From assembly GCA_900197615.1 (NCBI GenBank), contig FZLR01000019.1, forward strand, positions 1 through 42,413: DNA of 42,413 nt, written 5' to 3'. The number at the start of each line of letters is the position of its first letter. Within the stretch, counting starts at the first letter, position 1. The notes under the pieces are model-generated. The model had not been told where the DNA came from. It saw only the letters and a program-made list of their open reading frames with translations, and searched no databases. Of the stretch, positions 14,325-37,035 are shown piece after piece. The position numbers and the translations under genes are program-made. The DNA is from Rhodospirillaceae bacterium Spongia-Bin9 (GTDB taxonomy: Bacteria; Pseudomonadota; Alphaproteobacteria; Bin65).

Positions 14325-15080
14325 TCAGTGCTCCTTCAGCAGCCGTCCGAAGCCGTCGAGCCGGTCGTCGATCCCGGCGCGGCGCAGGGCGAACCAGAAG
14401 GTTGCCGTGTTGCTGCTGACCACCGGCTTGCCGGTTTCGGTCTCCAGCCGTTCGATAACGTCCAGCGTCGCGAGATCGGTACAGGACAGCAGGATCGCCT
14501 CGGCTTCGGGCCGGTCGACCCGCTTGGCGAGGGCGTAGACTTCTTCGGGCCGGATACGCGCGATATTGCGGTGTTCCTGCGGCCCGCCGGCGCCGTAGCC
14601 GAAACCTTCCTCGTGAACGACCTCAATGCCGTGATCGGCGAGGAAGCGCACCTCGTGCGCGTTAAGCCCGGCATCGTAGGGCGTGCCCAGTGCGATCCGG
14701 GCTGCGCCGAGCGCGCGCAGGGCTTCGACCAGCGCCTGCGCCGTGGTCACCGCCGGCCGGCCGGTGCGCTCGCTCATGAAGGAAGGCAAGGTCTCGACCG
14801 GGCTGACCATGGAGCCGGCCGTGCAGCCGTAGGCGATCAGGTCGACGCTCGCCATCGCCAGGTCGCCGGCATAGCGCTCGACGTCGGCATAGAGCGCCGC
14901 CTTGCCGGCTTCGCTCGTCGTATCGAGATGCAGCGGCATGCGCGCGGCATGAAGCGTCACGCCGGGAGGAACCATCCGGGCCCATTCCGCCTCGTTGGCG
15001 GTGTTGGTCGGCGGGACGATAACGCCGATCTTGGCCCGTGTGCCGTAAACGGTCGGCCGATCGATCCTGTCCAGCCGCAT
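14325..15080 (-). CDS. Maleate isomerase / Asp-Glu racemase superfamily protein
   Basis: 251-residue cofactor-free enzyme of the maleate cis-trans isomerase / arylmalonate decarboxylase branch of the Asp/Glu racemase superfamily. The two catalytic cysteines are present: Cys86 in AYGCTAGS and Cys200 in LLSCTDL. The family N-terminal loop GVIVPPTNT is at 19-27, a NTA element at 224-226. It lies 8 bases downstream of an isochorismatase-family gene on the same strand. In the nicotinate (nic) pathway, maleamate amidohydrolase and maleate isomerase carry out consecutive steps, so maleate to fumarate is an attractive guess. A racemase or decarboxylase role is also possible. Confidence 0.82.
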   Translation of the reverse strand: MRLDRIDRPTVYGTRAKIGVIVPPTNTANEAEWARMVPPGVTLHAARMPLHLDTTSEAGKAALYADVERYAGDLAMASVDLIAYGCTAGSMVSPVETLPSFMSERTGRPAVTTAQALVEALRALGAARIALGTPYDAGLNAHEVRFLADHGIEVVHEEGFGYGAGGPQEHRNIARIRPEEVYALAKRVDRPEAEAILLSCTDLATLDVIERLETETGKPVVSSNTATFWFALRRAGIDDRLDGFGRLLKEH

Positions 15081-15088
15081 CGGACCGG

Positions 15089-15802
15089 CTACTCTGCCGC
15101 CTCGGCGGCGCCCGAACCGATACCGGAGAGCGCCCCGATGACCTCGTCGGTCGTCATTATGTCGGCGAAGCTGATCGACATGCTGGTCAGGCTGGCGTTG
15201 TGAATGGCGTCGGTATAGGTGGCGTTGCCGTCAGAGACCATGATGACATTGAAATTGCGCATCATGGCGTCGCGCGCCGTCGCCTCGCAGCAGACGTTGG
15301 TGAGCGTTCCGGTTACCGCCAGGGTATCGATGCCCAGGGCGCGCAGTTGCTCCTCGATATCCGAGGATCCCTGGATGAAGGCGCTGAACCGGCGCTTGAC
15401 CGACCGTATGTCGCCGTCCTCGTCATCCATCTCAGGCCAAAGGGGATGACCTTCGGCGCCCTCCATAAGTTGCCGTGCGATCCGCTTCGCCGTTTCCGGG
15501 CTGACGGTGCCGCCCAGGAAGGACGACCATTCTGCGAAGATGTTCTCATCGAAGGTCGTGGTGACCCAGACGACCGCCGCGCCCGCCGCCCGGAAGGCCG
15601 CCGCCAGGCGGTTGATGTTCGGGACGATTTCCCGCGCCTCGGGCACTTCCGAAGGCAGGCCGGGTTTCAGAAACGCTGTCTGCATGTCGACCACGACCAG
15701 GGCGGTGCGGGCCGGATCGAGGGTTTCGTGGACGTGCAGACGGCCGCCGCGCCGTGCCCTGATGAGCCGGACGGCGTCCGGGTGCAATTCGGTCTTGTGC
15801 AT
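15089..15802 (-). CDS. Isochorismatase-family cysteine hydrolase (amidohydrolase)
   Basis: 237-residue cysteine hydrolase. The Asp-Lys-Cys triad is visible: Asp39 in VVVDMQTAF, Lys136 in SVKRRFSAF and Cys171 in TLTNVCCEATARDA. The length and TNVC-E-T motif resemble RutB, N-carbamoylsarcosine amidase and maleamate amidohydrolases that release ammonia from small amides. Met at 15802 is chosen because GGGAGGA precedes it at good spacing. An upstream in-frame ATG adds 18 charged residues. It is first in a two-gene operon with a maleate isomerase-like gene, which favours a maleamate-type substrate. This is inference. Confidence 0.87.
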   Translation of the reverse strand: MHKTELHPDAVRLIRARRGGRLHVHETLDPARTALVVVDMQTAFLKPGLPSEVPEAREIVPNINRLAAAFRAAGAAVVWVTTTFDENIFAEWSSFLGGTVSPETAKRIARQLMEGAEGHPLWPEMDDEDGDIRSVKRRFSAFIQGSSDIEEQLRALGIDTLAVTGTLTNVCCEATARDAMMRNFNVIMVSDGNATYTDAIHNASLTSMSISFADIMTTDEVIGALSGIGSGAAEAAE

Positions 15803-16075
15803 GGCGTCCTCCCTTTCCGGTCCTTCGGTGCGGGTTCGGCTCCGGTTGCCGCGCAAAGGTGCATACGATCCCGGTATTGTCCAGCGCTACGCCGGGGCGC
15901 GGACAGGTCCGCCGGGCGGTGGCGCGCCGCGGCGCCGGTTGTGCCGTATGCCGCACCCGGTCCGGCGCAACACGGGAAAGGCCGGGCCCGGCAAATCCCG
16001 GCTACCGAAGCGGCCAGGTTCTGCCTATAACGAACACCTGCCCGGCATTGCCCGCGCCGGGCGCGGAGGTGACCG

Positions 16076-17095
16076 ATGAGCCATGACAAGCACACACCCT
16101 TCGAAGCGCCGGTGGTAGATCACCTGGCGGTTCGGGTCGTCGTCGATTCCCATCACGAGTTGTTCCTGCCCAAGGCCAGCCATCCGCATGCCAATATCGA
16201 GCATGTCGGGGTTGTTGCCGGGCAGCATATGACGACGCTTGCCGGCGAATGGGGCCTCTCGCTGCATCTCGAATCGATGGCGGGCGGCCACCGGGCCGAA
16301 TATGTGCTCGATTTCGGTTATACGCCGGAGATCATCAACCGGAATTTCGGGCTGCTGAACATCGATCCGGCGCGGCTCAGCGGTTTGATCCTGAGCCACG
16401 GCCATCGCGATCACTATGGCGGGCTGGAAGGCTTCGTCGACCGTTACCGCAGCGAAATGGTCGACGATATGAGCCTCTATGTAGGCGCCGAGGAGGCATT
16501 CCATGTGCGCTGGCTTCCGGCCGGACCGCCGAAGCCCGGCGAAAAGCCCGACATGCTGTACTGGGGCGCCCCGAATCGCGAGTCGCTGGTCGCGCAGGCG
16601 GTTGCGCCGGTCTGTTGCAACGGGCCGTCGGCGCTCGATGGTCCCTTCACCACAGGCTATATCGAGCGCGATACTTTCGAAGAGGTGACCGGCGGCACCA
16701 TGCTCGAAAGCCAGGACCATTTCAGCGAGGCGGAACGGCGCGGCGAACTGGTGTTCGACAGCCATCCCGAAGAGCACGCGACCTGCTATCTGGTGCGCGG
16801 GCGGGGTCTTGTCGTGATTTCGTCCTGCGGTCACTCCGGCATCGTCAACTCGGTCCGGACCGCCATGTCGATCGCCGGCACCGACCGGCTCCACGCGGTG
16901 ATCGGCGGCTTCCATCTCGGTCTGGCCAAGCCGGAATATATCGAGTTCACCATCGACGAATTGCAGAAGCTGCAGCCGGACGTCGTGGTGCCGATGCACT
17001 GCACCGGGGAGCCGTTCATCGAATCGATGCGCCGGCGCATGCCGGAACAGCTCGTGCGCTCGTATCTCGGCACCAGGATCACCTTCGGCGTCTGA
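16076..17095 (+). CDS. Metallo-beta-lactamase-fold metallohydrolase
   Basis: 339-residue MBL-fold protein. The metal motif HxHxDH is at His108-His113 (SHGHRDH). Later ligands are in SCGHSGIVN and GGFHL, and MHCTGE ends the core. This order resembles the group annotated as dihydropterin phosphate synthase-like (MptA/COG1237-type) MBL proteins, whose substrates are mostly unknown. The ATG follows GGAGG by six bases. No signal peptide is seen, so it is cytoplasmic. Its cysteine and histidine content (for example CC near residue 181) is not unusual for the group. It is a single gene, divergent from the isochorismatase-like gene. Confidence 0.85.
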   Translation: MSHDKHTPFEAPVVDHLAVRVVVDSHHELFLPKASHPHANIEHVGVVAGQHMTTLAGEWGLSLHLESMAGGHRAEYVLDFGYTPEIINRNFGLLNIDPARLSGLILSHGHRDHYGGLEGFVDRYRSEMVDDMSLYVGAEEAFHVRWLPAGPPKPGEKPDMLYWGAPNRESLVAQAVAPVCCNGPSALDGPFTTGYIERDTFEEVTGGTMLESQDHFSEAERRGELVFDSHPEEHATCYLVRGRGLVVISSCGHSGIVNSVRTAMSIAGTDRLHAVIGGFHLGLAKPEYIEFTIDELQKLQPDVVVPMHCTGEPFIESMRRRMPEQLVRSYLGTRITFGV

Positions 17096-17535
17096 GCCCG
17101 GAGGCAGAGCCTGCGGACAGGCGGTGAACGCAACGCCGTTTTCGCCACCGAAATACGCATCGACCGGATATGTCCTGACCGACTACTGAAACTTTACCGA
17201 CAATAAAATTGTTGACTATTTGACAACACCGTTGACTATTTGACCGGCAGGTTGCGCTCTTGTCTCATCGATTATCCCGGCCGTACATTTTGAATCCTGC
17301 CCGAACCGGACAATAGCTTGCCAGACCGACAGCCGGTCGGTAACATCTGTCACAGCAAACCGGAATACGCGTTTGATTCGCTCAAGTAACGACGCTTCGT
17401 GTCGGGCAGCGGCAATGGGCGACTACAGACTTCATACCTTTGAAGCTGGTCTTTCACGGCTGCGTGACCGATCACAATTCGATTGCAGGCGATAGGCAAG
17501 CACCTTGGGGCTCCTATCGACAGGGAGCAGGCGGA
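17096..17535. other. Gene-free upstream region of the LacI-family gene
   Basis: About 440 bases with no credible gene. They are richer in A+T than their surroundings around 17190-17240. The region holds the 14-base direct repeat at 17211-17244 and presumably the promoter of the regulator. An in-frame ATG at 17440 would extend the regulator by 32 residues ahead of its helix-turn-helix and is not favoured. Confidence 0.6.
17211..17244. promoter_or_regulatory. 14-bp direct repeat, candidate operator
   Basis: GTTGACTATTTGAC occurs exactly twice, at 17211-17224 and 17231-17244, with start-to-start distance of 20 bases (two helical turns). Each copy itself contains two TTGAC half-like blocks. The TTGACT elements also resemble -35 boxes. 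The arrangement fits tandem binding of a regulator on one DNA face. Which regulator binds is unknown. Confidence 0.6.
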
Positions 17536-18573
17536 ATGTCCAGACCGACCCTTAGTCACATTGCCGAACAGCTGGGCGTCTCGACCGCTACCGTATCGCT
17601 TGCCATGCGCGGTAGCCCGAAAATCTCGCAAAAAACCCGTGAGCGAGTTGCCGTCGCATTAAAAGAATCAGGATATATCTATCAGCGAAGTGCGGCCGGA
17701 CTGCGAACGGCGAAGACCCACACAGTCGGGATAATCCTGAACGATATTTCAGACCCATTTTGCACCACACTTCTTGCTGCGATCGAAGAAGAACTATCAA
17801 AGGTCGGACGGGTTATTTTTTTGTGCAACAGCAATGAATCGGTAGAAAGGCAGACAAATTTCTTGCGGACAATGGCCGAGTATAATGCGGATGGTGTCAT
17901 TATTTCGCCGGTGATCGGAACCACCCCCGACGATCTTCTCGATCGGACGGGTTCATCGCTGCCGATGGTCTTCGTGTCCAGGGCGTTGTTCGAACTCGAT
18001 AACGACTATGTCGTCAATGACGATCGGCAGGCCGCCGTTCTGTCGGCGCGGCGGCTGCTGGACACAGGGCACCGCCGGATCGCATTCGTCGGCGGAGAGC
18101 CCAGCGTCAGCTGCTTCGCAGCGAGGCTTCAGGGCTACAAGGAGGCGCTTGGCCAGGCATCCGTCGCGTTCGACGATGCGCTTGTCAAGGCTTGCACACC
18201 AACGCGTTCAGGCGGTTTTGCAGCCGCGCGCTGGGTCGCCGGGCTCGTTCCGAGACCGACCGCTGCAATCTGCTACAGCGATTCGGTCGCACTCGGCCTC
18301 AATTCGGGCTTGCAGGGCGAAGGCCTGTTCCCGGGCACAAATTTCGCGCTTGTCGGCCATCAAGACATCGAAGAAGCGGGATTCGCCAATCCGTCGCTCA
18401 GCACGACATCTGTGTCGGGCCGGGAGATGGGCAGGATAGCCGTTGCGCTTCTTGTCGAGCGGGCGGCGAATCCCGATGCGCCTCCGCAACGCCGTGTCCT
18501 GCCGTCCGAACTAGTTGTCAGGGAATCGTGCTCGATTTCCGAAAACGATGTCCTCTCCGGCAACGCGAACTAA
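17536..18573 (+). CDS. LacI-family transcriptional regulator
   Basis: 345-residue LacI/GalR repressor. The N-terminal helix-turn-helix is at about residues 4-25 (TLSHIAEQLGVSTATVSLAM), followed by the hinge helix region RSAAGLRTAKTHTVGIIL. The periplasmic-binding-protein-like effector domain runs from about 60 to 330, with the DISDPFCTTLLAAIEE and GHRRIAFVGG blocks. Start ATG 17536 is preceded by GGGAGCAGG. LacI proteins usually control sugar or small-metabolite genes near themselves. The closest candidates are its own upstream repeats and the GST, oxidoreductase and TonB receptor genes downstream. The ligand is unknown. Confidence 0.93.
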   Translation: MSRPTLSHIAEQLGVSTATVSLAMRGSPKISQKTRERVAVALKESGYIYQRSAAGLRTAKTHTVGIILNDISDPFCTTLLAAIEEELSKVGRVIFLCNSNESVERQTNFLRTMAEYNADGVIISPVIGTTPDDLLDRTGSSLPMVFVSRALFELDNDYVVNDDRQAAVLSARRLLDTGHRRIAFVGGEPSVSCFAARLQGYKEALGQASVAFDDALVKACTPTRSGGFAAARWVAGLVPRPTAAICYSDSVALGLNSGLQGEGLFPGTNFALVGHQDIEEAGFANPSLSTTSVSGREMGRIAVALLVERAANPDAPPQRRVLPSELVVRESCSISENDVLSGNAN

Positions 18574-24139: not shown

Positions 24140-25360
24140 TTGCCCCAGGCCTTCGACGGCATCCGTATTCTCGATTTTACCCAGGTCGTCGCCGGGCCCT
24201 ATGCTGCGCAATTGCTCGGCAACCAGGGCGCCGGGGTCGTCAAGGTCGAGCCGGCACGCGGCGACCAGCTCCGCCAGATATTCAAGACCTCCTCGCAGCC
24301 GCCGGACGCCGATTCGGCGGCTTACGAACTGGTCAACCGGGGCAAGCGATCGGTCTCGATCGACCTCAAGAATCCGGCGGGCCGCGACGCCATCCTGAAG
24401 GTCGCCGCCGGCTGCGACGTGCTGCTGGAGAACTTCCGGCCCGGCGCGATGGCCCGGCTCGGCCTGGACTACGAGGCGGTGCGCAAAGCGCGGCCGGACA
24501 TCGTCTATTGCTCGATCTCCGGCTACGGCCAGACCGGCCCGCTGGCCGGCGAGCCGGCCTATGACGGCACGATCCAGGCGATTTCCGGCATGATGTCGAA
24601 CAACGGCCATCCGGAAACCGGACCGACCCGCGCCGGCTTCCTGCCGGTCGACGTGCCGACCGCTTTTCTTGCCGCCTACGCCATCGCCGCCGCCCTGTTC
24701 CGCCGGGCGCAGACCGGCCGCGGGCAGTATGTCGATCTCGCCATGATCGATACCGCCATCCTGATGCAAATGTCGGTGTTCTCCCAGGTCTTTACCGACG
24801 GCAGCGGCGGCGGCCTGATCGGCAACCGCTCGACCGCCGCGGTGCTGACGGCGGACGCGTTTCCGTGCAGCGACGGCTATATCGCCGTGAGCGCGGTGAC
24901 GCGGGCCCAGGGCCGGATCGTGCTCGAACTGGCCGGGCTCGATCCGGACCTGTGGGACGATTTCGATCCGAACGACCCGGAGAGCCCGCGCTCCCGGGAA
25001 GTTGCGGACATCGTCTATGCGGCCTTCCGCCAGCGTCCGATGAAAGACTGGGAGGCCCGGTTGCGCGGGGCCGGGCAGTCGGCCTCCTGCGTGCTCGACG
25101 CCAAAGGCGTCGCCGGTCTCGACCAGATGGCCCACCGCGCCGTTTTCCAGGACGATCCTGCGGAAAACCCTGCGGCTCCGCGCACGATCGGCGGCGCATT
25201 CAAGGCGAACGAGGACGGGCCCGCCATCGCCGGCCGCGTTTCCGCGATCGGCGAGGATACAGAAGCCGTGCTGACCGACTTCGGCTTTTCCGGCGCGGAT
25301 GTCGCGACCCTGCGCGAAGCCGGCGCTATCCGGAGCGACGAGCCGTCCGCGCCTGCCTGA
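24140..25360 (+). CDS. CaiB/BaiF (class III) CoA-transferase
   Basis: 406-residue family III CoA-transferase that moves CoA between acyl-CoA and a free acid. It often activates dicarboxylates, carnitine-like or aromatic acids. The N-terminus is GIRILDFTQVVAGPYAAQLLG, and the CoA-binding stretch NRGKRSVSIDLKN follows at 67-78. The catalytic aspartate is Asp142 in EPAYDGTIQAISG. ENFRPGAMARLGLDYE is also typical. Start is TTG at 24140 with GAAGGGAA 8 bases upstream. No ATG gives a full N-terminus. The acid partner cannot be told. Confidence 0.92.
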   Translation: MPQAFDGIRILDFTQVVAGPYAAQLLGNQGAGVVKVEPARGDQLRQIFKTSSQPPDADSAAYELVNRGKRSVSIDLKNPAGRDAILKVAAGCDVLLENFRPGAMARLGLDYEAVRKARPDIVYCSISGYGQTGPLAGEPAYDGTIQAISGMMSNNGHPETGPTRAGFLPVDVPTAFLAAYAIAAALFRRAQTGRGQYVDLAMIDTAILMQMSVFSQVFTDGSGGGLIGNRSTAAVLTADAFPCSDGYIAVSAVTRAQGRIVLELAGLDPDLWDDFDPNDPESPRSREVADIVYAAFRQRPMKDWEARLRGAGQSASCVLDAKGVAGLDQMAHRAVFQDDPAENPAAPRTIGGAFKANEDGPAIAGRVSAIGEDTEAVLTDFGFSGADVATLREAGAIRSDEPSAPA

Positions 25361-25426
25361 CCCGGACCTGAGGATGGCAAGCGAGCAGCCAGGCGCCGCC
25401 GGCGCCTCCGGAGGATCGAGCGCAGG

Positions 25427-25927
25427 TTACGCGGCGCCGGCCGCCGTCGCTGCCTCCCTGCCTTCGCAAATGAGCGACATGATCTCGGCGCCGAGGACGA
25501 GGTCTTCCTCCATGCCGAATTTCTGTTTCCTCAAACGCCCCAGCCGATCGACGAGGATCAGCGTCGGCGTTCCCTGCATACGATAGCGCGCCATCGTCTC
25601 GGGAAGGCCGCCGCTTTCGGACGGCGCATCGATACCGACAGGAAATCCGATCTTGTATTCGTGCAGGAATGCGGTGAGCGCGGCGCGCGTGCCCTGCGCA
25701 TCGTGGTGCTCGAACACCGTATGCAGGCCGACGACGGCCACGTCATCGCCGTTGAAGGACCGGTGCACGCGCATCGCCTGCGGCAGACCGTGGGACACGC
25801 ATCCCGGACACAGCATCTGGAACGCTTCGATCAGAACCACCTTGCCACGCAACGATTCGAGCGAGATCGGCTTATCGACATTCAGCCAATCGGCGGTTTG
25901 CAATTCAGGCGCAGCGATCGGTTTCAT
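25427..25927 (-). CDS. Thioredoxin-fold redoxin (AhpC/TSA or TlpA-like)
   Basis: 166-residue protein with the thioredoxin fold. The active site is CPGC at Cys40-Cys43 (FQMLCPGCVSHGLPQ), after the strand GKVVLIEAF. The cis-proline element is in MQGTPTLILVDRLGRL. An insertion (VFEHHDAQGTRAALTAFLHEY) lies between, as in TlpA/ResA-like and redoxin proteins. There is no signal peptide or membrane anchor, so it probably works in the cytoplasm. It could be a thiol-disulfide reductase or a peroxiredoxin-like enzyme. It is in the same orientation as the enoyl-CoA hydratase, 55 bases apart, and may share its transcript. Confidence 0.87.
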   Translation of the reverse strand: MKPIAAPELQTADWLNVDKPISLESLRGKVVLIEAFQMLCPGCVSHGLPQAMRVHRSFNGDDVAVVGLHTVFEHHDAQGTRAALTAFLHEYKIGFPVGIDAPSESGGLPETMARYRMQGTPTLILVDRLGRLRKQKFGMEEDLVLGAEIMSLICEGREAATAAGAA

Positions 25928-25982
25928 TTGCGTTATCCATCGGATTCGGAACTGTACTCGGTTCTGCGCCGCCCTGACCGCT

Positions 25983-26750
25983 TTATCGCTTCAATGCCTC
26001 GGCCAGCATCCGCGCGGGTTCGTCGCTTTCGAACGACTCGGCGAAGGCGTCGATGCTGACGGCGACCGCTTCGGTCAGGGACACCTCCTGCCACCGGTTG
26101 AGCAGCGCCTTCTGGGTGCGGACGGCAGCCGGGCCGCAGGCGAGGATCGCGCCGAGCCAGGCATCGACGGCGGCGTCGAGTTCTGCCGGCGCCGTCACTT
26201 TCTGGAGGTAGCCGATCTGCGCCGCTTCCGCGGCGCCGTATTCGCGGCCGGTCAGCAGCATTTCCCGCGCCGCGCCCCAGCCGATCAGGCCCGGCAGCAG
26301 CGCGGCCTCGATCACGCTGGGGATGCCGACGCGGACCTCCGGCATGGCGATGACCGCCGTCGTGTCGCCGGCGCGGAAATCGCAGGCCGCCGCCAGTTCG
26401 ACCGCTGCGCCCAGGCAATGGCCGCGGATCGCGGCGATGACCGGCACCGGCAGGCGGCGCACGGCGTCGATCGCTTCGTGCAGGGCGGTAATGAACGCGC
26501 GGGCGCTCGCCGGTGTCAGGCCAGCCATGACATTGACGTCGGCGCCTGCTGCGAAAGTCTCACCGCCCGCGCCGGCCAGTACCACCGCGCGCAGCCCTTC
26601 GTCCGTTTCCAGTTCCGCGCAGGCGCTCTTGAGGCCGGCGATGACGCCCAGACCGATGGCGTTGCGCTTGGCCGCCCGGTCGATGAGCAGCCGCGCCACC
26701 CGGCCGCCGTTCCGCTCCTCATAGTCGATCCGCGCGCCGCCGTCCGTCAT
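25983..26750 (-). CDS. Enoyl-CoA hydratase/isomerase family protein
   Basis: 255-residue crotonase-fold enzyme for hydration or isomerisation of acyl-CoA intermediates. The CoA/oxyanion loop is AAGADVNVM (68-75). The catalytic region is GHCLGAAVELAAACDFR with Glu118, and the second glutamate is Glu138 in AMPEVRVGIPS. So both acid positions of hydratases are kept. The usual glycine pair after the second glutamate is replaced by SVIEAALLP, common in some proteobacterial subgroups. Start Met 26750 is preferred over 26789, which adds an arginine-rich tail. It is divergent from the aldehyde dehydrogenase gene. Confidence 0.92.
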   Translation of the reverse strand: MTDGGARIDYEERNGGRVARLLIDRAAKRNAIGLGVIAGLKSACAELETDEGLRAVVLAGAGGETFAAGADVNVMAGLTPASARAFITALHEAIDAVRRLPVPVIAAIRGHCLGAAVELAAACDFRAGDTTAVIAMPEVRVGIPSVIEAALLPGLIGWGAAREMLLTGREYGAAEAAQIGYLQKVTAPAELDAAVDAWLGAILACGPAAVRTQKALLNRWQEVSLTEAVAVSIDAFAESFESDEPARMLAEALKR

Positions 26751-26943
26751 TCTGCTCTTGCCCCTCAGGATCGGCGACGGCGGTAGCACGAAGCGGGGCC
26801 GCGAAACAGGCTTTTTGCCCTGCGCCGATCCGGCCTCCCGCGGGCTGTTGGCAACCCGCGCGGGCGGACGCTATATCTGCCGCTATATTTCTGGGCGAAC
26901 GGCGCAACGCCAGTGTCACGATCAATCGCGAGGAAGCAGCAGC

Positions 26944-28377
26944 ATGTCGGCCAACAATCTGAAATTCTACATCGATGGCGCGTGGGTCGATCCGGTCGAG
27001 CCCCGGACGCTCGACGTCATCGACCCGGCGACGGAAGCGCCGTGCGGGCAGATCAGCCTGGGCTCGGCCGCCGATGTCGACAAGGCCGTGGCCGCCGCCC
27101 GCGCCGCGTTCGACGGCTATGCCGACACCAGCCGGGAGGAACGGCTCGAACTGCTGAACCGGATCGTCGAGATATACAAGAGCCGGATCGACGATCTCGG
27201 CGAGGCGATCTCGCACGAGATGGGCGCGCCGCTCGGCTTCGCCAGGAAAGTCCAGGCGCCGTCGGGCCTGGCGCACATCAAGACCGCTGGCCGGGTACTC
27301 AAGAATTATGAGTTCGAGGAGGTGCAGGGCAGCACGCTGATGCGGAGGGAGCCGGTCGGCGTCGTCGGCATGATCACACCGTGGAACTGGCCGCAGAACC
27401 AGATCGCCTGCAAGGTTGCGCCGGCACTCGCCGCGGGCTGTACCATGGTGCTCAAGCCGAGCGAGGTCGCGCCGCTCGACGCCATCATCTTCGCCGAAAT
27501 CCTCGACGAGGCCGGCGTGCCGGCCGGGGTGTTCAACCTGGTCAACGGCGACGGGCCGACGGTCGGCGAGGCCATGTCCGCCCATCCGGACATCGACATG
27601 ATGTCGTTCACCGGCTCGACCCGCGGCGGCGTCGCTGTCGCCAGGGGCGCGGCCGATACGGTCAAGCGCGTGACCCAGGAGCTCGGCGGCAAGTCGGCCA
27701 ACATCCTGCTCGACGATGCCGATATCGCCCGGGCGGTGAAGGGCGGCGTGTTCGTCTGCGCCGGCAATACCGGCCAGTCCTGCAACGCGCCGACCCGCAT
27801 GCTGGTGCCGATGGACCGGATGGCCGAGGCGGTCGAGGCCGCGCAGGCTGCGGCCGGCAAGATCGCCGTCGGCGATCCGCGCGATGAGGGCACGACCATG
27901 GGGCCGCTCGCCAGCGCCATGCAGTTCGACAAGGTCCAGGGCCTGATCGAGAAGGGCATCGAGGAGGGCGCCGAGCTGGTCGCCGGCGGCCCCGGCCGGC
28001 CCGACGGGCTGGACAGGGGCTATTATGTCCGGCCGACCGTGTTCGCCAACGTCTCCAACGACATGACGATCGCGCGCGAGGAGATTTTCGGCCCGGTGCT
28101 GTCGATCATCGGCTACAGCGACGAGGACGAGGCCGTCGCCATCGCCAACGACACGCCCTACGGCCTGTCCGGCTATGTCTCCTCGGCCGATCCGCAGCGC
28201 GCCGCCCGGGTGGCGCGCCGGCTGCGCACCGGCAACGTCCATATCAACGGCGCGATGCCCGATCTCTCTGCGGCGTTCGGCGGCTACAAACAGTCCGGCA
28301 ACGGCCGCGAATGGGGCGCCCACGGCTTCGAGGAATTCCTCGAGGTCAAGGCGATCTTCGGCGCCGACGCCGCCTGA
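26944..28377 (+). CDS. NAD(P)-dependent aldehyde dehydrogenase family protein
   Basis: 477-residue ALDH superfamily enzyme oxidising an aldehyde to the acid. Key residues are Asn148 (TPWNWP), Lys171 (KPSE), the nucleotide loop FTGSTRGG (222-229), Glu246 (TQELGGKS) and the nucleophile Cys280 (GQSCNAP). Late motifs EEIFGPVLSI and PFGGYKQSG-like FGGYKQSGNGREWG are present. The start ATG 26944 has GAGGAAGC upstream. The subfamily pattern fits broad-specificity or hydroxy-aldehyde enzymes, and the substrate is not evident. Confidence 0.95.
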   Translation: MSANNLKFYIDGAWVDPVEPRTLDVIDPATEAPCGQISLGSAADVDKAVAAARAAFDGYADTSREERLELLNRIVEIYKSRIDDLGEAISHEMGAPLGFARKVQAPSGLAHIKTAGRVLKNYEFEEVQGSTLMRREPVGVVGMITPWNWPQNQIACKVAPALAAGCTMVLKPSEVAPLDAIIFAEILDEAGVPAGVFNLVNGDGPTVGEAMSAHPDIDMMSFTGSTRGGVAVARGAADTVKRVTQELGGKSANILLDDADIARAVKGGVFVCAGNTGQSCNAPTRMLVPMDRMAEAVEAAQAAAGKIAVGDPRDEGTTMGPLASAMQFDKVQGLIEKGIEEGAELVAGGPGRPDGLDRGYYVRPTVFANVSNDMTIAREEIFGPVLSIIGYSDEDEAVAIANDTPYGLSGYVSSADPQRAARVARRLRTGNVHINGAMPDLSAAFGGYKQSGNGREWGAHGFEEFLEVKAIFGADAA

Positions 28378-28418: not shown

Positions 28419-29258
28419 TCAGCCGGCTTTCGCCGAGACCGTCCAGCAGGCGCTGCCCAGCGTCACTGCGCCGTTGCGGACATGCGGCACGAGTTTCTCG
28501 GCCAGCGCGGCCTCGGCGCGCTCGGCGAGGTCGCCGCCGGCTTCGGCGAGCAGGGCCGCCGCCGGCCCCATCTCGAGCAGGAATCGCGCCGTCTCCGGCG
28601 GCTCGCCGGGTATTTCGAGCGCGATATCCAGCGGGTCGAAGCGGCAATCGCGCCAGCCGGCGCCCTCCAGCCAGCCGGTCGCCAATGCGGGATCGGCCCA
28701 CTGGAACTGGCTCGGCTCGCCCGGCGCCGGCCGCCGCGGCAGTTCGACGAAAGCCTTGGCCGCCGACACCGGGATCATCACCCACGGGTTATCCCGCGGT
28801 TCGCGCCAGACGATGAAGACCAGCCTTGCATCCGGCGTGCATGCCCGGCGCAGGTTGGCCAGCGCCGCCGGCGTATCGCGGAAGAACATGACCCCGAAAC
28901 GGGAGAACAGGATGTCGAATGTGTCGTCCCGAAACGGGTAGTCCTGGGCGTCGCCTTCCGCGAAACACATGGTCTTGCGCCCGTTGGCCCGTTCCCACGC
29001 GCGTTCCAGCAGGGGCGGGGAAACGTCGATGCCGGCGGCCGATCCGCCGTCGCCGGCAGCTTCGGCCAGCGCCAGAGTGGTCCCGCCCGCGCCGCAGCCG
29101 ATGTCGAGGCAATGTTTGCCGGCGATATCGCCGAGTGCCGTCAGGCCGGCCTCGGTGAACGGCGTCATCATCCGCTCGATGCGGTCCTCCAGGCGCAGCC
29201 ATTTCTGCCCCTGGTCGGTCGACCAGAATTCGATCTGGTCCCGGTTCGCCTCCGCCAC
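28419..29258 (-). CDS. Class I SAM-dependent methyltransferase
   Basis: 279-residue Rossmann-fold methyltransferase. Motif I is LDIGCGAGGTTLALAEAA (51-68), followed by AGIDVSPPLLERA (acidic ribose contact), EGDAQDYPF (adenine pocket) and FDILFSRFGVMFF. The start is GTG at 29258, only two bases after the DapA-like stop, so translation is coupled. A longer frame upstream is the shadow of that gene. It is last of the three-gene set Mo-subunit / DapA-like / methyltransferase. The acceptor is unknown. Resemblance to UbiE/small-molecule methyltransferases is general only. Confidence 0.9.
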   Translation of the reverse strand: MAEANRDQIEFWSTDQGQKWLRLEDRIERMMTPFTEAGLTALGDIAGKHCLDIGCGAGGTTLALAEAAGDGGSAAGIDVSPPLLERAWERANGRKTMCFAEGDAQDYPFRDDTFDILFSRFGVMFFRDTPAALANLRRACTPDARLVFIVWREPRDNPWVMIPVSAAKAFVELPRRPAPGEPSQFQWADPALATGWLEGAGWRDCRFDPLDIALEIPGEPPETARFLLEMGPAAALLAEAGGDLAERAEAALAEKLVPHVRNGAVTLGSACWTVSAKAG

Positions 29259-29260
29259 GG

Positions 29261-30244
29261 TCAGGCGGCCCGGGCCGGGCTGTCGAGGACAAGGCCGCAG
29301 GAGTCGAAGGCCGCACGGGTCGCCGCCTTCTCCGCCTCGGTGAGCGACAGGCCGGGGCGGCGAACATGGCCGCCGGTCTGGCCGAGCAGGTCCTGCCAGT
29401 ATTTCTGGTGGCTGTGCGGCTTGCCCGGCGGGCGGGTGCCCTTGAGCGCCTTGCGAACCGGATTCAGGCTGTCGCGCACGGCGCGGGCCTTGGCGGTCTC
29501 GCCGGCGAAGGCGAGGTCGGTGTACTGGCGCATCCGCTTGTCGGCGGCGGTCTGGATCAGGTAGGGCGGCGAGGAGCAAAGGTAGAGCCGCCAGCCCAGT
29601 TCGACGACATTGTCGAACCATTCGTCTTCCGACGCTGTGCTGACCAGGATGCGGTCGCCGGCCAGTTCGGTCAGCCGGGCGTACATCTCCCGCGGCACGC
29701 TGTATTTGATCGCCACGATATTCGGCAAGTCGGCGACACGGCTGCACAATTCCGGGCTCATCAGGTAGCCGCTGTCCGGATGGCTCCACATGGCAACGGC
29801 GATATCCACCCGCTCGCAGATGTAGCGGTAATATTCGTAGACCGTATCGTCCGGATCGTTGTTGAAATGCAGCACCGGCGCGTGGACGACGATATAGGGG
29901 CAGCCGACATCCTGGGCGTGTTGCGCCAGGTCGATCGCGACATCCAGGTTCTGGTCCGAGCAGGACATGATCGTGCTGGCCGGGCCGCCTTCACATTCAT
30001 CGACGGCGATTTCCAGGCAGCGTTTGCGCTCCTCCAGCGACATGGCGAAGAACTCGCCCTGCTTGCCGGAAATGAAAAAGCCGTCGATTTCGAGGTCGTC
30101 GATCCAGTGGCGCAGGTTGCGGCGCACCGCGGCCTCGTCGACCGCGCCGTCCTCGGCGAATGGGGTCAGCGCCGCCGCCCAGATGCCCTTCATATGCTCG
30201 CGGGCATAATCCTTGGCTTCGGATTTCCGGTAGGGAAGGGCCAT
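29261..30244 (-). CDS. Atypical DapA-family (class I aldolase) lyase
   Basis: 327-residue TIM-barrel protein of the dihydrodipicolinate synthase / N-acetylneuraminate lyase superfamily. These make a Schiff base with a 2-oxo acid. The lysine is kept at Lys180 (NIVAIKYSV), and the oxo-acid loop is GKQGE at 60-64. The YNxPGRT segment, which carries the catalytic tyrosine and arginine of DapA, is replaced by WSHPDSGY (153-160). It is therefore not a lysine-pathway enzyme and may be a specialised aldolase, decarboxylase or hydratase-aldolase. It sits between an orphan Mo hydroxylase subunit (22 bases upstream) and a methyltransferase (2 bases downstream). Confidence 0.86.
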   Translation of the reverse strand: MALPYRKSEAKDYAREHMKGIWAAALTPFAEDGAVDEAAVRRNLRHWIDDLEIDGFFISGKQGEFFAMSLEERKRCLEIAVDECEGGPASTIMSCSDQNLDVAIDLAQHAQDVGCPYIVVHAPVLHFNNDPDDTVYEYYRYICERVDIAVAMWSHPDSGYLMSPELCSRVADLPNIVAIKYSVPREMYARLTELAGDRILVSTASEDEWFDNVVELGWRLYLCSSPPYLIQTAADKRMRQYTDLAFAGETAKARAVRDSLNPVRKALKGTRPPGKPHSHQKYWQDLLGQTGGHVRRPGLSLTEAEKAATRAAFDSCGLVLDSPARAA

Positions 30245-30266
30245 CCTTCTCGCTCCGCCGTTTCTG

Positions 30267-32459
30267 TCATCGGTCTCCGGCGCCGGCCCCGATGTCGGTT
30301 CGGGCGTCGCGGATTGCCTGCCAAATATGCGCAGGGGTGAAGGGCATGTCGAGATGCTTCACACCGAGCGGGCGCAGGGCGTCCAAGACGGCGCAGGCGA
30401 TCGCCGCCGGCGCGCCGATCGCGCCGGCCTCGCCGATGCCCTTGGCGCCGAGCAGGTTGGCCGGGCTCGGCGTCTCCATCCGCTCCAGCGTCACCGGCGG
30501 CATGTCGGCGGCGCGCGGGATGCCGTAGTCCATGAAGGAGCCGGTGAGCAGCTGCCCGTCCGCGTCGTAGACGATCCGCTCGATCAGCGCTTCGCCGAGA
30601 CCCTGGGCGATGCCGCCCAGCAACTGGCCCTCGGCCAGCATCGGGTTGACGACGGTTCCGGCATCGTCGACCCAGACCAGCCGCTCGACGGTCGGCACGC
30701 CGGTCTCCGGGTCGATGGCGACGGCGCAGCCGACCGCGCCGTAGCCCCAGGCTTCGCCCGCCGCGGTGTAGGTCGCATCGGCTTCGAGGCCGCCGGTTTC
30801 GCGCGCGATGGCGGCCCAATCCGGGCAATCGCCGACGGGCCGGCCGTATCGCTCTTCCGCCTGCTGCCGGAGCGCATCGCAGGCTTCGATCAGCGCACTG
30901 CCGCCGATCGGCGTGCTGCGGCTGGCCAGCGCGCCGATGGCCGTGTCCGGGGCGCGGCTGTCGCCGTGGACGACGGCGACGGTACCGGGTTCGACCCCCA
31001 GCCGTCCGCCGACGATCTGCTGGACCGCGGTGGTCCGGCCCTGGCCCTGGGCGGTTGAGCCGGTGGCCGCCGTTATCCCGCCGTCGGGACCGAGGGTCAG
31101 CCGCGCGGTCTCCCAGCCGAGGCCGGAAGGCTCGATATAGGTGATTGTGGCGCTGCCACGCAGCAGGCCGTCGTCCGCTGCCTGTCCGGTCGGGCCGGCG
31201 TCCGCCAGCAGCGCGACCGCACGGTCGTGGGCGGCGCGATAGTCGCCGCTGTCCAGCCGTTGGCCCGTCGGCGTCGTCCACGGCATGTGAGACGCAGCTA
31301 CGAAGTTGCGCCGGCGCAGCTCCTCCGGCGGCAGGTCCAGCGCCTCGGCCAGCCGTTCGATCAGCAGTTCCATGGCCAGTGCGGCTTCCGGCCGGCCGGC
31401 GCCGCGATAGATACCGACGGCCGCGCCGTGCGTCTCCATGCCTGCGGCTTCGATATCCACGGATTGGACCTTGTATGGGCCGGGCAGGATGCGCCCGGCG
31501 TTGCGCGCCGGCACGACGGCGCTGTAGGGCATCCAGGAGCCGAGCGGCGCCCGGACCGTGGCTTCCAGATGGAGCAGCGTTCCGTCGGCGGCAGCACTCA
31601 GGCTGGCCTCAACGCTCTGGCCGCGGCCCTGAGTGGCGGCGAGGAAGTCCTCGCTGCGGGTGCCGATCCATTTCACGCATCGGCCCAGCGAGCGGGCCGC
31701 GAAGGCGACCGCGATATCTTCGGGATAGAGCGAGGCCTTCATGCCGAAGGCGCCGCCGACATCCGGAGCGACGACCCGGACCCGTTCCGCGTCCAGCCCG
31801 AGGACCGCGGCAAGTTCCTCGCGCGCCCGGTGCGGCGACTGGCTGCCGAGCCAGACGGTGAGAAGGCCCGGCTCCGAAGCGGCGTCGGCGACCAGCCCGC
31901 GCGGCTCCAGCGCTGCCGGGGCGAGCAGCGGCTGGCGCAGGGACACGCTGGCCTGCGCCGCGGCGTTGCGGGTGTCCGGCGCCGCCGTGCGCCAATTCTC
32001 GAGCGCCCGGACTGCCTCCGTTCCGCCCGGTGGACCGTCTGCGGTTAGGGGCTCGATGTCGACCCAAACGGACTCTGCGGCGTCCGTTGCCGCGGCGGCG
32101 GATTCTGCCACGACCAGCGCGATCGGCGCGCCGACCGACGTTACGACATTCATCGCCAGCGCCGTCGGCGGCAGGGGCCGGATTTCCGGCATCAGCGGGT
32201 TGATCGAGGTCGGCCCGAGGCTGGCCGTATCCGCGCCGGTGAAGATGGCGGCGACGCCGGGCAGGGCGGCCGCTTCCGCCGTCTCAATCGCCGAGATCCG
32301 ACCGTGCGCCTCCGGGCTGCGCACGAAGGCGGCATGGAGGCAGCCCGCGACGCGGATATCGTCGGTAAAGCGTCCGCGGCCGGTCAGGAGCGCCCGGTCT
32401 TCGACGCGCAGGCGGGCCTGCCCGACGCCGCCGGACGATGCGGTAAGATCTTCCGACAA
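30267..32459 (-). CDS. Xanthine dehydrogenase-family molybdenum-binding subunit, orphan
   Basis: 730-residue large (molybdopterin-binding) subunit of the xanthine oxidase/CO dehydrogenase family, which hydroxylates C-H bonds of heterocycles or aldehydes. The N-terminal hammerhead domain (about 18-130) begins RLRVEDRALLTGRGRFTDD. The Mo domains have GGAFGMKASLYPED, CVKWIGTRSEDF, YRGAGRPEA and, near residue 675, KGIGEAG with the catalytic glutamate. It starts at TTG 32459. No gene for the FAD or 2Fe-2S subunit is next to it, so partners must be elsewhere or replaced. It is first of a compact operon and divergent from the MttB-family gene. Confidence 0.9.
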   Translation of the reverse strand: MSEDLTASSGGVGQARLRVEDRALLTGRGRFTDDIRVAGCLHAAFVRSPEAHGRISAIETAEAAALPGVAAIFTGADTASLGPTSINPLMPEIRPLPPTALAMNVVTSVGAPIALVVAESAAAATDAAESVWVDIEPLTADGPPGGTEAVRALENWRTAAPDTRNAAAQASVSLRQPLLAPAALEPRGLVADAASEPGLLTVWLGSQSPHRAREELAAVLGLDAERVRVVAPDVGGAFGMKASLYPEDIAVAFAARSLGRCVKWIGTRSEDFLAATQGRGQSVEASLSAAADGTLLHLEATVRAPLGSWMPYSAVVPARNAGRILPGPYKVQSVDIEAAGMETHGAAVGIYRGAGRPEAALAMELLIERLAEALDLPPEELRRRNFVAASHMPWTTPTGQRLDSGDYRAAHDRAVALLADAGPTGQAADDGLLRGSATITYIEPSGLGWETARLTLGPDGGITAATGSTAQGQGRTTAVQQIVGGRLGVEPGTVAVVHGDSRAPDTAIGALASRSTPIGGSALIEACDALRQQAEERYGRPVGDCPDWAAIARETGGLEADATYTAAGEAWGYGAVGCAVAIDPETGVPTVERLVWVDDAGTVVNPMLAEGQLLGGIAQGLGEALIERIVYDADGQLLTGSFMDYGIPRAADMPPVTLERMETPSPANLLGAKGIGEAGAIGAPAAIACAVLDALRPLGVKHLDMPFTPAHIWQAIRDARTDIGAGAGDR

Positions 32460-32498
32460 GCCGGACCCCGCCTGAGGAAATTGTCCCGGAGAATTTAA

Positions 32499-32512
32499 CC
32501 TGAATTTTCAGG
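32499..32512. promoter_or_regulatory. Inverted repeat between divergent operons, candidate operator
   Basis: CCTGAA-TT-TTCAGG, arms of six perfectly complementary bases, lies in the AT-rich part of the spacer between the Mo-subunit operon and the MttB-family gene. It could coordinate both. It is short enough to occur by chance. Confidence 0.4.
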
Positions 32513-32653
32513 CTAGCATGAGGCGGATGCCCGGTGTAGGGGTGCCGCCCGCTCGGCTACCGCGGAGGCGGAGGCCGACTTTTCGTATTGCGACCCGCGC
32601 CGGACAAAGCGCCTGACCGATCGTTCTTCCGGTGCCGATCGATGGAGGTTGCC

Positions 32654-34174
32654 ATGGCCCGACGCGCCCGGGTGGACCGCGGACGACCGGCCGCTGCAAG
32701 TGGGGCGCCGGCCTCGCCCTATATCAGGCGCCGCCTGCCGAACTTCGATTTCCTGGACGAGGAGGGGCTCCGGCGGATCGAGGCCCAGGTCGACTGGATC
32801 TTCGAAGATGTCGGCATTGCCTTCCGGGGCGATCCCGAGGCATTGCAGCTATGGCGGGAAGCCGGCGCCACAGTCGAGGACGACATGGTGCGCGGTGCGG
32901 CGGACTGGATTCGCGATCTTTGCGCAAAGGCGCCGCGCCAGTTCACCCAGCTGGCCCGCAACCCCGAACGCTCGGTCGAGATCGGCGGCGACAACCAGGT
33001 CTATGCGGCGGTCTACGGCCCACCCTTCGTGCGCGATCTCGAAGGCGGCCGGCGCTATGGCGATATCGAGAGCTTCCGGAACCTGGTGAAGCTTATCTAC
33101 ATGCACCCCAACCTGCACCACGGCAGTTTCGTGGTCTGCGAGCCCTGCGACGTGCCGGTGAGCAAGCGCCATCTCGACATGCTTCACGCGCATATGACGC
33201 TGAGCGACAAGCCACATTTCGGCGCCATCACCGAAAAAAGCCGGGCGCAGGACAGCGTCGACATGGCCGAAATCGTGTTCGGACGCGAGACGATGGACGA
33301 ACAGTGCGTCATCCTCGGCAATGTCAACACCAACTCGCCCCTGCTGGTGGACAAGGTCGTGACCGAGTCCATCCGGGCCTATTGCGGCCGGGGGCAGGGC
33401 ATCGCCGCGGCGCCGTTCATCCTCTCCGGCGCCATGGGGCCGGTCTCGACCGCTGCCTCCGTCGCCCAGGCGCTTGCCGAGGCGATGATGGTCTGCGCCT
33501 TCGCCCAGCTCGTGCGGCCGGGCGCGCCCTTCATCCTCGGCAATTTCCTGACCTCGATGTCGCTGAAATCCGGCGCGCCGACCTTCGGGATGCCCGAAGC
33601 GGTGATGTCGCACTATGCCATCGGCCAGCTTGTCAGACGAGTCGGCCTGCCCTTGCGCTGCGGCGGTTCGCTGACGGCCTCCAAGATCGAGGACGCGCAG
33701 GCGGCCTACGAATCGGCGGATTCGATGCACTCCACCGCGCTTGCCGGCGCCAACTTCGTCCTCCAGGCGGCCGGCTGGCTGGAGGGCGGGCTGTGTACCG
33801 GGTTCGAGAAGCTGATCATGGATGCCGACCGGCTCGGCGGCTACCAGAAGCTGCTGGCCGAGGGCTTCGACACCGGCGACGAGGCGTTGGCGCGCGACGC
33901 CTATGGCGAGGTCGGGCCGGGCGGCCATTTCCTGGGCTGCGGCCACACGATGCGCAACTACCGGACCGCCTTCTACGAGGCGGCGCTGTCGGACAGCGAG
34001 AATATCGAAAGCTGGACGGAGGCCGGCTCGACGGACATGCGCCGCCGCGCCCATGCGCGCTGGACCGGGATGCTGGAGGAATACACGCCGCCGCCGATGG
34101 ACGAGGCCGTACGCGAGGAACTCGACGCCTTCGTCGCAAAGCGCAAGGAAGAATTGCCCGACGCCTGGTATTGA
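32654..34174 (+). CDS. MttB-family (trimethylamine / betaine-type) corrinoid methyltransferase, non-pyrrolysine
   Basis: 506-residue TIM-barrel protein of the COG5598/MttB superfamily. Members transfer a methyl group from quaternary or tertiary amines (glycine betaine, proline betaine, carnitine and others) to a corrinoid protein. Blocks such as RRLPNFDFLDEEGLRRIEAQ, GNVNTNSPLLVDKVVTE, SGAMGPVSTAASVAQALAE and GGSLTASKIEDAQAAYES fit the family. The frame has no internal TAG, so it lacks pyrrolysine. GGAGG lies 5 bases before ATG 32654, which decides the start over 32588 and 32642. No corrinoid-protein gene is adjacent. The substrate is unknown. Confidence 0.9.
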   Translation: MARRARVDRGRPAAASGAPASPYIRRRLPNFDFLDEEGLRRIEAQVDWIFEDVGIAFRGDPEALQLWREAGATVEDDMVRGAADWIRDLCAKAPRQFTQLARNPERSVEIGGDNQVYAAVYGPPFVRDLEGGRRYGDIESFRNLVKLIYMHPNLHHGSFVVCEPCDVPVSKRHLDMLHAHMTLSDKPHFGAITEKSRAQDSVDMAEIVFGRETMDEQCVILGNVNTNSPLLVDKVVTESIRAYCGRGQGIAAAPFILSGAMGPVSTAASVAQALAEAMMVCAFAQLVRPGAPFILGNFLTSMSLKSGAPTFGMPEAVMSHYAIGQLVRRVGLPLRCGGSLTASKIEDAQAAYESADSMHSTALAGANFVLQAAGWLEGGLCTGFEKLIMDADRLGGYQKLLAEGFDTGDEALARDAYGEVGPGGHFLGCGHTMRNYRTAFYEAALSDSENIESWTEAGSTDMRRRAHARWTGMLEEYTPPPMDEAVREELDAFVAKRKEELPDAWY

Positions 34175-36340: not shown

Positions 36341-36489
36341 GCGCTGCAATCCTTTCCGGCATTGCCCCGTCGCGCGGAACCGCCGACACGGCCATCGCCG
36401 GAACCGTCGACGCCGGAATCGTCGACGCCGGGGCCGCGCGGGTACGCTGGCGCCGGCGCCCGAGCCCTCCAAGACCGGGAGATCGCCGC

Positions 36490-37035
36490 ATGGCGCGCGT
36501 AACCGTAGAAGACTGCATCCTCAAGGTGCCGAACCGCTTCAATCTTGTGATGTATGCCTCCCAGCGCGCGCGGGATATCTCGTCGGGCGCGGCGGAGACG
36601 GTCGACCGGGATAACGACAAGAATCCCGTGATCGCGCTCAGGGAAATCGCCGAAGATACGCTGTCGTTCGAAGAGCTCCAGGAATCGTTGATTCTGGGCT
36701 TGCAAAAACAGCAGCCGAGCGACGATCTCGAAGAAGACCTCGAAGTTGCCGAAGCGCTGACCCGGGAATCGATCGTCCTCGGCGCAACGTCTGTGGACGG
36801 CGGCGTCGCCGACCGGCAGGCTGCGAATACCGCTGTTGCCGATGCCGAGGACGTCGGCACGATGCAGGAAATCGCGGCCGGCGCGGCGGCCGAGGCCGAT
36901 ACGGGCGTTCTGCTCGGCAGCGGGGCGCAGGAACCGGAGGCGCCCGAGGAACCGGAGGCACCCGAGGAACCGGAGGCACCCGAAGGACCGGAGACGCCCG
37001 AGGAACCGGAGGCGCCGGAGGAACCGGAGGGCTGA
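36490..37035 (+). CDS. rpoZ: RNA polymerase omega subunit with acidic repeat tail
   Basis: 181-residue omega subunit, which assists RNA polymerase assembly and forms part of the (p)ppGpp site. The conserved core is residues 1-60: [41 protein letters not shown]. Most omega subunits are about 70-130 residues. Here a second acidic, alanine-rich part (about 80-145) is followed by a PEAPEE repeat tail of about 35 residues coded by 18-base units. GGGAG precedes the ATG. The stringent-response gene follows 133 bases downstream, a usual pairing. Confidence 0.94.
36931..37032 (+). repeat. 18-bp tandem repeat inside rpoZ
   Basis: Five full units (starting 36931, 36949, 36967, 36985, 37003) plus a partial sixth at 37021. 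Unit consensus is GAACCGGAGGCACCCGAG, coding EPEAPE. Units differ by a few substitutions, one giving EPEAPE to GPETPE. The unit length is a multiple of three, so copy-number changes keep the frame. Confidence 0.92.

Follow-up and report, generated by a model that had tools for sequence, protein, structure and literature searches.

The known bacterial exit from 3-hydroxyanthranilate (HAA) begins with HAAO, whose product is 2-amino-3-carboxymuconate 6-semialdehyde (ACMS), and continues with ACMSD, the enzyme that usually follows; ACMS also cyclises spontaneously to quinolinate. In the nba/onb set for meta-cleavage of 2-nitrobenzoate/HAA, HAAO and ACMSD are accompanied by a 2-aminomuconate semialdehyde dehydrogenase, a RidA-type deaminase, a hydratase and an aldolase. 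We analysed a 42,413-nucleotide stretch of DNA from Rhodospirillaceae bacterium Spongia-Bin9 (contig FZLR01000019.1; hereafter the window), which corresponds to contig C164 in an assembly of 4.06 Mb and 96% completeness (G000). It carries an operon for a Mo hydroxylase large subunit and a DapA-fold protein. We propose, with a probability of roughly 0.7, that these two proteins belong to the lower HAA (kynurenine) pathway, where they would replace the ACMSD/2-aminomuconate branch. As in the nba/onb pathway, HAAO would open HAA and the semialdehyde would be oxidised. Here, however, the window genome has no clear ACMSD and the loci of the DapA-like family hold no ACMSD, RidA or hydratase homologue; DapA-fold and aspartate dehydrogenase (AspDH)-like proteins are found instead, and the oxidation is assigned to a Mo enzyme or to an aldehyde dehydrogenase (ALDH) resembling succinate-semialdehyde dehydrogenase.

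The operon lies on the reverse strand and encodes the large subunit of a Mo hydroxylase of the XO/CoxL family (30267-32459, TTG start), the DapA-like protein (29261-30244) and a class I SAM-dependent methyltransferase (28419-29258, GTG start at 29258), separated by 22 and 2 bases, respectively. A gene for an MttB-superfamily methyltransferase (32654-34174, forward strand, ATG start) diverges from it across a spacer of 194 bases (32460-32653). An earlier note, made from the sequence alone, had described this arrangement and the gene coordinates agree with it; its four family assignments were confirmed by Pfam. The Mo subunit matches MoCoBD_1/2 and Ald_Xan_dh_C (PF02738, 198 bits; PF20256, 198 bits; PF01315, 89 bits; all above cut-offs), the DapA-like protein matches DHDPS (PF00701, 118 bits), the methyltransferase matches Methyltransf_11 (70 bits) and the MttB protein matches MTTB (PF06253, 710 bits). 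The note's view of a catabolic operon that combines a Mo hydroxylase with an unusual Schiff-base-type lyase is also upheld.

A single genome scan gave 102 confirmed relatives of the DapA-like protein, 80 of which were kept. The family has more than 80 close members in Alphaproteobacteria and Acidimicrobiales, a few of them in records that carry the label Gammaproteobacteria. Identity to the window protein is 63–95% among the scan relatives and falls to 60% in one further genome (G009); the gene forms a tight subfamily. Open reading frames of 84 loci were clustered and representatives identified by Pfam and NCBIfam. The gene directly before dapA encodes a Mo subunit at 30 loci, an ALDH at 29 and another protein at 24, with one locus at a contig edge. 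Within 9 kb of dapA, 24 loci have a Mo subunit only, 38 an ALDH only, seven both and 15 neither; four of the seven belong to the window genus, counting its convergent ALDH. In 40 of the 84 loci the next gene downstream of dapA, on the same strand, encodes HAAO, and in 51 HAAO lies somewhere within the fetched DNA (the cluster HAAO scores 258 bits against a TIGR03037 cut-off of 146). An AspDH-like gene, above the cut-off for the NCBIfam aspartate dehydrogenase subfamily, is present in 47. Importers of the Liv-type ABC or TRAP kind are also common. LysR regulators and an HSL-type hydrolase, perhaps a kynurenine formamidase, belong to the set as well, and some loci add an FAD monooxygenase, kynureninase or tryptophan dioxygenase. 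Annotated plasmids carry the same genes: HAAO, ALDH, kynureninase, TTT and TRAP transporters, AspDH and DapA in Phaeobacter, Mo subunit, DapA, HAAO, ABC importer and AspDH in Chelatococcus and Paroceanicella, and the ALDH version of the module in Rhizobium and Ruegeria. The wide conservation of DapA with a Mo subunit (or ALDH), HAAO, an AspDH-like protein and an importer therefore points to HAA as the substrate. A 4-hydroxyproline/KGSA-type pathway, which would also pair DapA with ALDH, was rejected because the recurrent partner is HAAO.

Co-occurrence was then counted across 241 genomes of the class. The DapA-like gene is present in 15 genomes and HAAO in 23, with both in 14 (Fisher p 7e-16, or 3e-11 by genus, the fairer count since several species come from single genera). 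With an ACMSD query taken from a homologue verified against 2hbv, and scores above 400 bits regarded as clear, four of the 241 genomes encode ACMSD; all four have HAAO and lack the DapA-like gene, and in each of them ACMSD adjoins HAAO. No homologue of ACMSD, the RidA deaminase or the hydratase was found in 92 DapA-family and related loci, a set that includes a few loci from the same genus or family without the DapA gene itself. In betaproteobacterial HAAO clusters members of this set do occur: RidA is annotated in those of Caballeronia, Mycetohabitans and Cupriavidus, and a hydratase in that of Caballeronia. Since clear ACMSD is confined to genomes without the DapA-like gene and is absent from the 92 loci, the DapA module and ACMSD seem to be alternatives to each other. 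Caution is needed, as five genomes with HAAO and without the DapA-like gene carry only distant ACMSD relatives (31–33% identity).

The genome from which the window comes encodes further kynurenine-pathway genes. HAAO is on contig C145 (TIGR03037, 252.7 bits against a cut-off of 145.95; best solved match 1yfu, E 2e-75). Tryptophan dioxygenase is present at two loci, one of them beside an HSL-type hydrolase. A kynureninase scoring above its cut-off is followed by LivHMGF, 44–58% identical to the importers of the operons, and an AspDH is also encoded. The ACMSD query gave no match at E ≤ 1e-30 in this genome.

The Mo subunit resembles the CoxL-type Mo hydroxylases (CO dehydrogenase, quinoline 2-oxidoreductase, glyceraldehyde dehydrogenase alpha) in its domains and Mo-binding architecture, but scores below the NCBIfam cut-offs, is linked to dapA and HAAO and has no FeS or FAD subunit gene beside it. 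The earlier note's term 'orphan' is thus apt locally. The Nitratireductor operons L053 and L064 do encode FeS and FAD subunits, and a CoxG gene is found in some Mo-type operons (L049, L054, L064). The window genome contains 11 CoxS-type [2Fe-2S] genes, ten of which have a matched Mo subunit nearby; a contig end truncates the remaining one, which is followed there by a Mo subunit fragment. No CoxS/CoxM pair without its own Mo subunit was found in this genome, where one case is cut by a contig end. It is possible that the window subunit borrows the FeS and FAD subunits of its nearest paralogous complex, on contig C157 (L185). The CoxGMS genes beside tryptophan dioxygenase on contig C168 were rejected as the missing partner because this cluster, as found in genome G005, precedes a large subunit of its own, and contig C168 breaks off within such a subunit.

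The Mo subunits linked to dapA, including that of the window, form a near-clade on a tree that has two label changes, each of them forced. They share a YRGAGRPE loop, which is also found in the nearest paralogue, L185. On the DapA tree the partner changes between Mo subunit and ALDH at least seven times, although well-supported branches force only two of these changes. Gemmobacter illustrates the exchange: in operons whose gene order is closely similar, the Mo subunit precedes dapA in L049 and L054 and an ALDH does so in L067 and L104. From this exchange we infer that the Mo enzyme and the ALDH share a reaction type, the conversion of an aldehyde to an acid.

The predicted structure of the DapA-like protein is of high confidence (pLDDT 91.6) and has the dihydrodipicolinate synthase (DHDPS)/N-acetylneuraminate lyase (NAL) fold (Z about 33, Foldseek TM 0.8), with about 17–26% identity to solved members. 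The structure-match lists from Foldseek and VIA are filled by DHDPS/NAL entries and do not discriminate function. Scores fall well below the curated cut-offs for the NAL equivalog NF003164 (86 against 281 bits), dapA TIGR00674 (79 against 206) and KdgD TIGR03249 (76 against 374). The catalytic residues of the DapA family include a Schiff-base lysine and a tyrosine that is usually needed for the aldol chemistry. K180, the Schiff-base lysine, is invariant in 85 sequences. F127, also invariant in the 85, aligns with the catalytic tyrosine after the TP motif, in an alignment with a one-residue gap. The pocket signature GKQGE..VHAP.LHF..KYS is nearly or fully invariant in the same set, and its GKQGE element replaces the usual carboxylate-binding loop. 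The protein thus shares the TIM-barrel fold and the position of the lysine with DHDPS, NAL and KDG dehydratase, but differs from them in its sub-threshold scores, its GKQGE loop and the phenylalanine at the aligned tyrosine position. With K180 retained, Phe127 and the GKQGE loop suggest that the activity has changed and that its substrate carries more charge.

These observations can be assembled into a putative route. HAAO, encoded elsewhere in the window genome, would open HAA to ACMS. The Mo enzyme, with FeS and FAD subunits supplied from elsewhere, would oxidise the C6 aldehyde to give 2-amino-3-carboxymuconate ahead of cyclisation to quinolinate; this step would fall to an NAD aldehyde dehydrogenase in other species. 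Given the known structure of ACMS, the DapA-like protein would bind C2 through a Schiff base at Lys180, with loss of ammonia by transimination, and after hydration would cleave C3–C4 in a retro-aldol reaction to give malonate semialdehyde (C3) together with a C4 product, either oxaloacetate or iminosuccinate. Iminosuccinate/aspartate would be handled by the AspDH-like enzyme, whose presence fits iminosuccinate as a product. All seven carbons would thus be kept through ring opening and 2-amino-3-carboxymuconate split into a C4 amino/oxo-diacid and malonate semialdehyde by a new, Tyr-less activity of the DapA fold, with the Mo dehydrogenase and the NAD ALDH interchangeable, and the whole would be a complete undescribed pathway. 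We regard this full scheme as possible and offer it tentatively. Comparative genomics argues for the assignment to HAA catabolism, for an exchange between Mo enzyme and ALDH and for the lack of clear ACMSD where the DapA-like gene is present; the steps after ACMS, the products and the substrate of the importers are putative. The earlier note had remarked that a pathway with this gene set was not known to be described. In the full text of the open PMC literature we likewise found no description of a pathway that joins HAAO to a DapA-family lyase, which is weak evidence of absence; the sole co-occurrence of the two there is in PMC4895345, by its title an unrelated proteomics list.

Several observations weigh against the assignment to HAA catabolism or against parts of the scheme. 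The phenylalanine aligned with the catalytic tyrosine position means that the hydration/retro-aldol step may be wrong. HAAO, kynureninase and the Mo–dapA operon are on separate contigs of the window genome, and their link rests on relatives. Among the 15 genomes with the DapA-like gene, G209 has no HAAO at the threshold used. The genome sample holds several species of single genera, the family is mostly alphaproteobacterial, and the five genomes with only distant ACMSD relatives belong here too, as do the 15 of 84 loci with neither Mo subunit nor ALDH nearby. In three Acetobacteraceae loci (L082, L092, L093) a POR/POR_N, TPP_C and GltD-like FeS flavoprotein set abuts dapA in place of the Mo subunit or ALDH, and the scheme does not explain this 2-oxoacid:ferredoxin-oxidoreductase-like set.

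The pathway could be the same and the DapA-like protein act differently, as a Schiff-base decarboxylase/deaminase that follows C6 oxidation and leads to 4-oxalocrotonate or pyruvate-type products. Phe127 at the position of the aldol tyrosine, with Lys180 kept, would suit such an enzyme, and 2-amino-3-carboxymuconate, a beta-imino acid, should lose CO2 readily. However, a downstream hydratase or RidA deaminase has no homologue in the 92 loci, and the recurring AspDH-like partner better suits a C4 amino or imino acid; we consider this alternative unlikely. Less probable again is a salvage route in which the Mo enzyme hydroxylates quinolinate at C6 to 6-hydroxyquinolinate. One of the closest solved relatives of the Mo subunit is indeed an N-heterocycle hydroxylase (quinoline 2-oxidoreductase, 1t3q, 338 bits), and the product would be the lactam of the acid proposed above. 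The position of the Mo subunit is nevertheless taken by NAD ALDHs in sister operons, enzymes that are unable to hydroxylate aromatic rings; nor was any recurring lactam-opening enzyme recognised in the loci. Finally, it is very improbable that the four enzymes form one pathway, with MttB as its demethylase, for the substrates suggested by the earlier note, an N-methylated heterocycle or betaine: in those sister contigs that were read, MttB does diverge from the operon, and it could work as a demethylase with a corrinoid protein and pterin-binding methyltransferase encoded on contig C71, but it does not travel with the module (see below), and the widely conserved partners are kynurenine-pathway genes that point to HAA.

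The nearest relatives in the genome collection are metagenome-assembled genomes named Rhodospirillaceae or Alphaproteobacteria bacterium. All four genes occur together in four sister contigs of the window genus (L033-L036), and the three operon genes are present in G003. In G006, of the same genus, HAAO, the Mo subunit and the methyltransferase are adjacent in a row, and the DapA gene is on a separate contig, where it adjoins a TRAP transporter gene. The co-occurrence of the four families is therefore kept in close relatives and not outside them. MttB was not found in 76 other loci of the genome collection, nor beside the HAAO, Mo and methyltransferase genes of G006 where the sequence was read. 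Its position is kept only in the window genus, and on these grounds it was rejected as a pathway member; it is probably an independent neighbour. The protein scores 230.8 bits against the TIGR02369 cut-off of 525 and its gene has no in-frame TAG (pyrrolysine) codon. In this, and in its full-length match to PF06253, it resembles the non-pyrrolysine MttB superfamily (the glycine betaine methyltransferase MtgB; Sinorhizobium meliloti 4yyc), from which it differs in having no corrinoid protein nearby; it also lies outside the conserved module. Its nearest solved structure is 4yyc, followed by 2qne and the glycine betaine methyltransferase 9yce. The window genome has seven MttB matches, and a corrinoid protein, a DUF1638 protein and a pterin-binding methyltransferase are encoded together on C71 (L196, 951-3662); it is possible that the corrinoid protein and the methyltransferase serve this MttB and its paralogues.

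The spacer does contain the inverted repeat that the earlier note had pointed out (32496-32504/32507-32515, 9 nt arms, 89% complementary in a repeat search). In four sister species only its right half falls within a conserved block, and a role as a conserved operator was rejected because the left half lies outside. The block itself (32508-32545, forward strand, GGCTAGCATG...GTGTAGGGGTGC), upstream of mttB, is conserved in an alignment of five species and is promoter-, operator- or regulator-like.

Homologues of the SAM-dependent methyltransferase (43–60% identity) adjoin or lie near HAAO in G006, G009 and G017, and the methyltransferase may therefore be an accessory of the pathway. A row in G017 (L133, contig C112, 8984-12406) consists of HAAO, an AEC-type membrane transporter, a methyltransferase homologue and a gene of the glyoxalase/dioxygenase superfamily, which suggests a further HAAO-linked setting for this methyltransferase. 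Beside the operon, genes for a CaiB-type CoA transferase, an enoyl-CoA hydratase and an ALDH hold their position across the genus, G006 included (window 24140-28377; L131 765-4611). The ALDH gene (26941-28377, forward strand, Pfam Aldedh) is convergent to the operon and syntenic in L033-L036 and L131. These genes possibly supply further catabolic steps, and their link to the pathway is putative.

Elsewhere in the window, genes resembling arylmalonate decarboxylase/Asp-Glu racemase, isochorismatase and metallo-beta-lactamase (14325-17095) are followed by a LacI regulator (17530-18573) and possibly form another small catabolic cluster. The rpoZ frame for the RNA polymerase omega subunit (36445-37035, forward strand) carries at its end the code for a long, acidic tail rich in Pro and Glu, spelled out by 5.7 copies of an 18-bp tandem repeat (36929-37030); relA/spoT and pdxJ come after it.

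The kynurenine pathway is among the central routes by which tryptophan is broken down, and the Mo–DapA assignment to it, if true, would add a second bacterial exit from HAA besides ACMSD. The module occurs in some 80 or more species with sequenced genomes, among them culturable soil and marine Alphaproteobacteria, and is carried on plasmids of Phaeobacter, Ruegeria and Rhizobium; the proposed route is directly testable in cultured strains. It would also assign a role to genes whose only present annotation is 'dihydrodipicolinate synthase family', 'xanthine dehydrogenase family', 'succinate-semialdehyde dehydrogenase' and 'aspartate dehydrogenase'.

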